NCBI GenBank assembly: GCA_017514845.1
Contig: JAFWIM010000250.1
Location: 1-47,478, forward strand
DNA: 47,478 bases
Direction: 5' to 3'
From: Lachnospiraceae bacterium
GTDB taxonomy: Bacteria > Bacillota > Clostridia > Lachnospirales > Lachnospiraceae
Made by a program: the position numbers and the translations under genes. Below, one piece after another: positions 9,313-31,878 of this stretch. A model generated the notes under the pieces. That model did not search any database, was not told the DNA's origin, and saw nothing but the letters and a program-made list of their open reading frames with translations. Position 1 is the first letter of the stretch. Each line of letters begins with the position of its first letter.

Positions 9313-9419
9313 AGACAGATGCGTGGCTGACAGTACAGTAAAGGCAGTATTGGAGTTTTGCTGTCGGCGTAAGGCATCCTATCCATATGAGAATGAGATA
9401 GATTCGTGGTTGACAGTTC
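9313..9419. repeat. 83-bp-spaced direct repeat at the edge of the structured element
   Basis: Two 24-nt sequences, 9313-9336 and 9396-9419, match at 20 of 24 positions (pattern AGAYAGATKCGTGGYTGACAGT). The right copy runs into the left terminal inverted repeat of the element at 9412-9608; the left copy is also followed by a degenerate form of that end (CAGTAAAGGCAGTATTGG). It looks like a partial duplication of the element's left boundary. Confidence 0.6.
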
Positions 9420-9608
9420 AGGCAGGCTGATTTGGAATATCGTTACAGGCGCAAACATCAATCTTCGTGAGAAAAGCATTGCATATCCGACTGAAAGATC
9501 GAAACATGCGTAGCATGTTTCAAGCTTGCAGGGAAGGATATGCGCTTTTCGATGAAGATGATGTTTGAGCCTGTTTAATGGACTTCGGTACAGCCTGTCC
9601 GAACTGTC
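9412..9608. repeat. Structured intergenic element, copy A (complete)
   Basis: A 197-bp element with imperfect terminal inverted repeats: GACAGTTCAGGCAGGCTG at 9412-9429 and its complement with two changes at 9591-9608. The interior folds on the plus strand as nested helices: ATCTTC/GAAGAT (9461-9466 with 9554-9559), GAAAAGC/GCTTTTC (9471-9477 with 9544-9550), GCATATCC/GGATATGC (9481-9488 with 9536-9543), CTGAAAG/CTTGCAG (one mismatch; 9491-9497 with 9525-9531) and GAAACATGC/GCATGTTTC (9501-9509 with 9513-9521, triloop GTA). The outer stem continues through AAACATCA/TGATGTTT. Compensatory changes relative to the 31-kb copies support the fold. No coding potential is apparent. It fills most of the gap between the methionine gamma-lyase-like gene and the YhiN-like gene. 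Confidence 0.8.
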
Positions 9609-9626
9609 TTAAGGTCTGATCTACAA

Positions 9627-18129: not shown

Positions 18130-18141
18130 GAATATAGGGTA

Positions 18142-18232
18142 ATAGTTCAGACTGGCTGTTCTTGCAGTTCGTTTCCGACTGCATAGCACTCATCTTCGTG
18201 AGATATGCATTACAGGTCCGATAGTTCGATCT
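18142..18232. repeat. Structured intergenic element, copy C (truncated)
   Basis: Carries the left end of the element family only: ATAGTTCAGACTGGCTG (18142-18158) matches the terminal repeat. After 48 nt, the same spacing as in the other copies, comes CATCTTCGTGAGATATGCAT and then ACAGGTCCGATAGTTCGATC. The central hairpin, the returning strand and the right terminal repeat are missing; similarity stops a few bases before the proB stop codon. It lies between proB and its terminator, so it is probably transcribed as 3' UTR. Confidence 0.65.
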
Positions 18233-31425: not shown

Positions 31426-31787
31426 TGTGTCAGCCTCCGGAGTAAGGTCACAGTTCAGACGAACTGATATAGTGGTATGGCAGCCGGAAGCAAAGCATTC
31501 ATCTTCGTGAGAAAAACATTGCAGGTCCGACCGAGAGATCAGAAGATGCGGATGCATCTTCTAAGCTCGCAGAGGAGAATCTGCGTTTTTCGATGAAGAT
31601 AGTGTTTGTGTCAGCCTCCGGAGTAAGGTCACAGTTCAGACGAACTGATATAATGGTATGGCAGCCGGAAGCAAAGCATTCATCTTCGTGAGAAAAACAT
31701 TGCAGGTCCGACCGAGAGATCAGAAGATGCGGATGCATCTTCTAAGCTCGCAGAGGAGGACGTGCGTTTTTCGATGAAGATGATGTT
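31426..31787. repeat. 181-bp tandem duplication carrying two element copies
   Basis: Two consecutive 181-bp units (31426-31606 and 31607-31787) align without gaps and differ at about six positions. Each unit holds a 20-bp left flank (TGTGTCAGCCTCCGGAGTAA), the left terminal repeat and nearly all of the hairpin body. The right terminal repeat exists only once, after the second unit. Confidence 0.85.
31446..31606. repeat. Structured intergenic element, copy B1 (lacks right end)
   Basis: Left terminal repeat at 31446-31466 (core CACAGTTCAGACGAACTG). Helices on the plus strand: ATCTTC/GAAGAT; GAAAAAC/GTTTTTC (31511-31517 with 31585-31591); GCAGGTCC/GAATCTGC (31521-31528 with 31577-31584, one G/T and one A/C); CCGAGAG/CTCGCAG (31531-31537 with 31566-31572); AGAAGATGC/GCATCTTCT (31541-31549 with 31554-31562, loop GGAT). 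The right terminal repeat is missing where the second unit begins. Confidence 0.8.
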
Positions 31788-31833
31788 TGCTCAGGCGTAT
31801 GAGACTTCGCTTCAGTTCGTCTGAGCTGTAACC
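31627..31833. repeat. Structured intergenic element, copy B2 (complete)
   Basis: A complete element of 207 bp. Left terminal repeat 31627-31647 and right terminal repeat 31813-31833 are inverted copies of each other with two changes in 21 positions (core CAGTTCGTCTGAGCTG on the right). The hairpin body is as in B1; the third helix is GCAGGTCC with GGACGTGC (one mismatch). It lies in the 600-bp gap between yebC and alr; that gap otherwise holds only the yebC promoter and a 10-bp tandem repeat. Confidence 0.8.
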
Positions 31834-31878
31834 GTGTCTAACCGTGTCTAACCGTGTCTAACTGTGTCTAACCGTGTC
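31831..31878. repeat. 10-bp tandem repeat at the alr 3' end
   Basis: Unit ACCGTGTCTA repeated 4.8 times, with one C-to-T change in the fourth unit. It begins inside the last bases of the B2 right terminal repeat and stops 9 bp short of the alr stop codon. Non-coding; likely prone to slippage. Confidence 0.85.

Follow-up and report, generated by a model that had tools for sequence, protein, structure and literature searches.

The structured intergenic DNA described here is read, with a probability of roughly 0.7, as a miniature element of IS66 type in which selection acts on the single-strand fold of the core, probably in the form of RNA. In the proposed mechanism, a non-autonomous element of about 203 bp with IS66-type ends would be spread in trans by an IS66-family transposase, an enzyme that the carriers may since have lost. 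Inside, the element would form one long hairpin, with a core of several internal loops and covarying helices that is probably selected for the folding of a single strand, the one that is + in the window. The fold most likely acts as RNA, transcribed through or from a neighbour, with a putative role as a protein-binding or transcript-shielding structure, and the element would thereby scatter a structured RNA through the genome. Selection for the fold of one strand is argued from the covariation, from loops common to families with different ends, from a core that changes more slowly than its arms, and from a wobble bias.

The window is the whole stretch of 47,478 nt analysed, contig JAFWIM010000250.1 of a Lachnospiraceae bacterium, and it carries the following copies and parts.

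9410..9610, + strand: copy A, whole element, TTGAC-AGTTCAGGCAGGCTG ... CAGCCTGTCCGAACT-GTCTT
9450..9569, + strand: conserved core of copy A (the region of model R1), with internal loop GTGA (at 9467-9470)/GAT and a variable apical helix at 9501-9521
18139..18221, + strand: 5' half copy, with the end GTAAT-AGTTCAGACTGGCTG, the arm, and the core as far as GGTCCGA
31447..31610, + strand: copy B1, from the 5' end through the core end, with AGTTC at 31452; core 31490-31610, the 3' end merging into the tandem duplicate
31628..31832, + strand: copy B2, whole element, core 31671-31791; second unit of a 181-bp tandem duplication

The sequence-only reading had described a nested hairpin shared by copies A, B1 and B2, and the hairpin is present as claimed when the sequence is re-read and the repeats and the alignment are inspected. 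All six paired changes on which that reading relied were recovered in A1, the alignment of 32 short copies: G-C in A and A-T in B at columns 27-99, A-T and G-C (in B2) at 36-93, A-T and G-C at 47-81, and the apical-helix changes at 53-74, 54-73 and 57-70. B1 and B2, however, are 97% identical units of the 181-bp tandem duplication and are not independent, so that the independent copies compared are two. B1 and B2 also have one mismatch apiece in helix 32-39/90-97. Palindromic DNA can regain pairing by template switching, and because of this and the tandem duplication the six changes on their own are a weak argument. Five 10-bp tandem units, TAACCGTGTC, begin at the 3' end of B2 (31829-31878), and comparable tandem repeats that include element ends adjoin other copies, at L022 and at site A (described below) in G025 and G003.

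Further copies beyond A and B were found in large numbers in the window's own genome (G000), in the sister species G003 and G025, which are rich in the element, and elsewhere in the genus. A DNA search of the own genome gave at least 45 matches (40 of 150 candidates scored), and model R1, built from 32 copies, gave at least 59 in each of G000, G003 and G025, where all 59 scored candidates per genome matched. Six further species have 1-7 R1 matches, which places R1 in 9 of 37 genomes of the genus; none of 24 genomes from other families of the order has it. With model R2, the long form, the element was detected in 9 of 42 genomes of the genus, and family-wide in 1 of 397, the own genome, although this search scored 8 candidates per genome and the absence beyond the genus is weaker than it appears. 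Within 775,034 bases of G025 there are 87 matches, 56 in the sense of the model and the other 31 in reverse sense at the same places, which extrapolates to about 217 copies per 3.0 Mb. Plasmids gave no match; phage contigs gave 0 with the end pattern and 2 with the core pattern, neither matching R2. The sequence-only reading did not recognise a known RNA class, and this agrees with Rfam, which has 0 matches at gathering scores across the whole window. For copy A at E up to 5, Rfam returns only two miRNA-family matches (E 0.19 and 2.8), far under their gathering scores and attributed to chance.

The fold of copy A spans its whole length, at -102.4 kcal/mol (z -10.1, with none of 200 shuffles as stable), and its opposite strand folds too (z -13.7). 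The covariation seen between A and B became strong once more copies were aligned, exceeding shuffled and slid controls in A1 and controls in the two long-copy alignments, with the reservation that kinship among copies inflates all of the counts. In A1, 98.0% of 1333 cells pair as against 92.3 after shuffling, both sides have changed in 18 of 42 pairs as against 7.7, and the covariation score is 0.213, compared with 0.103 after shuffling and 0.027-0.052 when the pairing is slid by 1-3 columns. Among 16 distinct long copies (A2), 99.6% of cells pair and 15 of 46 pairs have changed on both sides. The alignment of 43 distinct long copies (A4), which was fitted to the model, has 97.1% of cells paired versus 87.6 shuffled, 21 of 46 pairs changed on both sides, and 206 doubly changed cells versus 69. 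The measure of further pair types has no excess over shuffles in A2 or A4. Wobble differs between the strands: across 40 pairs in 127 short cores there are 109 G-U against 30 A-C, and this excess identifies the kept fold as that of the strand that is + in the window. The core has the internal loops GACC/GCAGGGNA and GTGA/GAT, and most copies of all forms have AACATT, GTCC and CGAGA in common, with GCA-GG-AGGAC on the other side. In L226 (G000 C227:4849-5050) and at G025 C3:157918-158108, the asymmetric internal loop is now nearly perfectly palindromic, possibly through correction by a template switch.

The element has sharp inverted ends with the consensus 5'-GTAACAGTTCAGACAGGCTG and measures about 203 bp in the window's species. 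Among 129 copies with both ends recognised, the distance from AGTTC to GAACT has a median of 193 nt, and outside AGTTCAGACAGGCTG GTAAC is the majority on both sides, with nothing conserved further out; on the 5' side the bases G-T-A-A-C beyond AGTTC occur in 74, 51, 59, 62 and 90% of copies. The 8-mers that flank these 129 copies have an identity of 0.374 against 0.254 expected, and among target-duplication lengths from 2 to 15 a clear excess is present at 8 alone, the others reaching at most 0.285. When GTAAC is exact at both ends (20 copies), the 8-mer identity rises to 0.512 against 0.272, with other lengths up to 0.342. Duplications of at least 7/8 are seen in 7 of the 129 copies and exact 8/8 duplications in two, GGGCAGAG and CTGGGTCT. 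Two empty sites were found, one for a G003 element absent in G025 and one for a G025 element absent in G003, with a clear duplication at neither. The pair L041/L015 was rejected as an empty site because of poor alignment, L015 being a partial deletion relative to L041. At site A, where a methionine gamma-lyase gene is followed by an HI0933-like gene, G000, G003 and G025 carry the element; among 27 other loci fetched, 20 other species have the same gene pair without it, with 13-309 nt between the aligned ends. Site B lies between alanine racemase and YebC and has two units in G000 and one unit plus a decayed remnant in G025, while 14 species have 44-202 nt there and no element. The sharp ends, 8-bp duplications and empty sites uphold the mobile-DNA half of the earlier reading.

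An 8-bp target duplication is typical of IS66, and GTAAC-type ends in combination with it are taken here as suggestive of that family. G027, of the same genus, has four copies of an IS66 element 1,967 bp long; the one listed, L365, contains ORFs of 126 and 483 aa. The ends of the four are perfect over 18 bp (GTAACTGTTCAGAACCCC) and match the element at 12 of the first 13 bases, and exact 8-bp duplications occur in three of the four copies; the R2 search found no element in G027 itself. The agreement in end bases and in duplication length makes an IS66-type enzyme the most likely mobiliser of the element. According to a portion of PMC12888890, IS66 members begin with GTAA. A single similar end, GTAACTGTTCAGT, is present in an IS66 of G001, and similar ends sought for the IS66 of G035, G033 and G003 were not found. 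The transposase domain PF03050 occurs in 7 of 20 genomes searched, including G033, G035 and G020; it is absent from G000 (83% complete) and G025 (97%), with a weak match of 27.6 bits in G003 (64%), and the G027 IS66 enzyme has no match in G000 or G025. A sample of G025, loci over 6 kb and the window contain no autonomous element with the same ends between 320 bp and 4.7 kb, and four longer end pairs beyond 4.7 kb were put down to chance. The enzyme may have been lost from the carriers, may lie within assembly gaps, or may be another relative. The element resembles IS66 insertion sequences in its ends, which begin GTAAC or GTTAC and read GTWACNRTTCAG, and in its 8-bp duplication. In contrast, it is gene-free and only about 203 bp long (about 256 bp in G020/G022), its interior is a conserved hairpin, and no parent insertion sequence was found in G000 or G025. 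It thus behaves like an IS66 MITE, and the only IS66 elements seen with similar ends are those of G027 and, at one end, G001.

The core is not confined to one set of ends. In G020 and G022 the element that holds it is about 256 bp long and has the ends GTTACYATTCAGCTGCC, which start with GTTAC. Both ends were recognised in 15 of 29 core hits, the other 14 being left out, and in these 15 copies the flanking 8-mer identity is 0.533 against 0.261, a value reached in 0 of 2000 shuffles. Five of the 15 look like a locus already represented in the other species; when each locus is counted once, 10 loci remain and the identity is 0.500-0.550 against 0.25-0.26, reached in at most 1 of 5000 shuffles, and one locus has the exact duplication TCGTGCAA. 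The apex of the hairpin differs between forms. An extra apical domain with the loop motif GTGACC...GCGGGA is present in G005, G033, G035, G011 and most G020/G022 copies, whereas the apex of the short form in G000, G003 and G025 is a variable stem, except in composite copies, where it is a hairpin like that of Clostridiales-1 RNA. There are five composite copies, L215 (G000 C153:6569-6862), L216, L217, L218 (counterpart at G025 C7:148198) and L219, with a similar extra apical hairpin of roughly 120 nt. In four of them (L215, L216, L217 and L219) the insert scores 34.5-40.5 bits against Clostridiales-1 RNA (RF01699), below the gathering score of 48. RF01699 itself is multi-copy in the 15 genomes searched, with 26 matches in G017, 19 in G020, 14 in G018 and 14 in G022, and for this reason it may be a mobile repeat too. 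One G025 copy, L075 (C4:13983-14123), is of the long form at 117.5 bits, whereas the other listed G025 matches score like short forms; it is possibly a remnant of the ancestral form.

Constraint on inserted copies was assessed at positions shared between species. Pairing through both flanks gave 32 pairs in the same orientation and 3 with an inverted interior; 30 rows (about eight loci) in which no partner core was recognised, owing to tandem arrays, decay or absence, and one redundant L017 row were left out. The median identity of the 32 pairs is 0.925 in the core, 0.814 in the arms, 0.808 just outside and 0.878 in the wider, mostly genic flanks. The core is more alike than the arms in 26 of the 32 and more alike than the wider flanks in 23, with the qualification that the pairs are partly dependent through three-way comparisons and that loci fetched for a good match favour conserved copies. 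The 10 pairs found by position form a cleaner set, in which the core exceeds the arms in 9 and the wider flanks in 5 (medians 0.900 vs 0.902). Arms are more alike than the core in 6 of the 32 pairs, and in some cases the core may therefore have been swapped between copies or converted. At 30 shared positions, pairing survives 83 of the changes (39 double compensated and 44 wobble) and is lost through 39 (33 single breaking and 6 uncompensated double). Divergence is 2.1% in stem 13-28, 7.1% in stem 32-39, 7.8% in stem 47-49, 8.6% in the internal loops and 11.7% in the apical stem. The lower stem is thus the most constrained part, and at sister-species distance the internal loops show no stronger constraint than the inner stems. 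Identity between copies within G000 is 0.839, so the shared positions retain their own history. At L003/L047, L017/G025 C1:66302 and L218/G025 C7:148198 the interior is inverted between sister species while the flanks are collinear. The pairs at L003/L047 and L218 share copy-specific variants, and the inverted interiors appear to be in-place flipping of the long palindrome.

Gene context was counted for 114 of 143 copies with simple ORF calls, 29 that overlapped a call being dropped. Forty-two copies are sense and 38 antisense to both of their neighbours, 21 lie between convergent and 13 between divergent genes, and orientation relative to genes is random (42 vs 38). Copies lie nearer to the 3' ends of genes than to the 5' ends, and such a context suits a mobile element that is tolerated downstream of genes. 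No promoter was detected at A or B, but shuffles also gave fewer than one, so that this negative carries little weight. The terminator scan found 0 sites at A and 1 terminator-like site at B, in B1. Most short copies have GCAGGTCC/GGACCTGC followed by GTTTTTC, and in most G020/G022 copies the T-tract is missing and GTTTACC or GTTTCCC is present.

The earlier reading left the choice between a conserved RNA and a mobile DNA selected for its fold, and both the mobility and the covarying fold have been borne out. A conserved hairpin shape in an element of many copies suggests the spread of a functional, RNA-like structure. The reading as DNA, in which a single-stranded hairpin is recognised by the transposase or the replication fork and the inserted copies have no function, accounts for a mobile element with IS66-type ends, one favoured strand and random gene orientation, and the random orientation together with the flipping of interiors leans towards single-stranded DNA used in transposition. 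Random orientation and the three in-place inversions also weigh against RNA from one fixed strand. However, the core exceeds the arms in identity at positions shared by G000 and G025, in both of which no IS66 transposase was found, and such in-place constraint leans to RNA. The inner parts of the ends lie in the arms, and the arms also change faster than the core; the DNA reading is accordingly held to be rather doubtful. The covariation could also come from mutation, if template switching copies one arm from the other in an inert palindrome. This fits the loss of the internal loop in L226 and its G025 counterpart, which became more perfectly palindromic, as well as the shortened copies L220-L222 and the flipping of whole interiors. 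But template switching should erase unpaired loops, whereas most copies still have them, as do element families whose ends differ, and it does not predict an excess of G-U over A-C on one strand; as the whole explanation it is unlikely, and it may add to the covariation. Since it may partly produce covariation in palindromic mobile DNA, a covariation test alone is no proof of RNA.

The hairpin could instead be a mobile transcription terminator or transcript end, being GC-rich with an A-tract before and a T-tract after it, as the GTTTTTC of most short copies and their position nearer to gene 3' ends would suggest. Against this, the scan gave one site in B and none in A, most G020/G022 copies have no T-tract, and termination does not need the conserved internal loops, which makes a terminator decidedly unlikely. 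Movement as a REP/IS200-like element by a Y1 (HUH) transposase, in the manner of REPINs and RAYTs, would suit the hairpin form, the intergenic location and the many copies. Y1 genes are present in 8 of 9 carriers, and G003 C42 encodes a RAYT-like Y1 transposase of 266 aa (L196:1114-1914). The 8-bp target duplications speak against it, as Y1 enzymes are not known to make such duplications. Of the 42 genomes of the genus, 8 have the RAYT-like protein, but 7 of these do not have the element, and the protein is thus found in 1 of 9 carriers; of 30 loci fetched around Y1 genes, one has elements, at a contig end. On this distribution and these loci a Y1 or RAYT enzyme was rejected as the mobiliser, and the reading is highly improbable. 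An IS66-type miniature element with a core selected for its fold remains the preferred reading. A more specific version of it is possible but tentative: the core would represent a new class of structured RNA that IS66-type miniature elements carry as cargo and whose copies are kept at many gene junctions as functional RNA parts, with one core, exchangeable apices (a conserved 45-nt domain, in round figures, a short variable stem or the Clostridiales-1-like hairpin), and carriage by element families with different ends.

BOX and bcr1 are among the bacterial MITE-like palindromic repeats, and palindromic repeats in bacteria have often been read as inert or simple hairpins. Like the present element, Correia/NEMIS, ERIC, RUP, RU-2 and CIR are 100-200 bp long, intergenic and form a stem-loop over their whole length in transcripts, as described in a portion of PMC2229807, where RNase III processing of the transcript hairpin is given as proposed for Correia/NEMIS. 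By that description, MITE families with long stem-loop transcripts are a kind already known. The present element is set apart from such repeats, by description, through loops common to families with different ends, strong covariation and an exchangeable apex. With regard to Clostridiales-1 RNA, the insert of the composite copies is alike, in contrast to the element itself, which is unmatched. In titles and abstract openings on MITEs or structured RNAs in Lachnospiraceae, on intergenic hairpin repeats and on Clostridiales-1, and in portions of PMC2864571, PMC2229807 and PMC12888890, the element is not described. The novelty lies in the retention of internal loops, in a second vehicle and in an apex that can be exchanged; a mobile element has retained its hairpin together with unpaired loops across end types and at sister-species positions. 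If the fold works as RNA, transposition would be distributing an RNA part among many gene junctions, and the effect on neighbouring genes could be tested by comparing sister species that are rich in copies with those that have none.

A pattern scan of named genomes gave at least 86 stretches, and among the 80 listed the labels are Lachnospiraceae, Clostridia or Clostridiales, nearly all of them MAGs, plus one Bacteroides record. That record, L125 (Bacteroides ndongoniae), and two others, L166 and L177, have no R1 match, and with R2 only L125 responds (E 0.018); the three loci are unexplained or chance. The carriers are some uncultured gut bacteria, in which the element lies between genes. Among the stretches from the pattern scan, the RGIG record titles name goat ileum, and the RUG prefix presumably stands for rumen.
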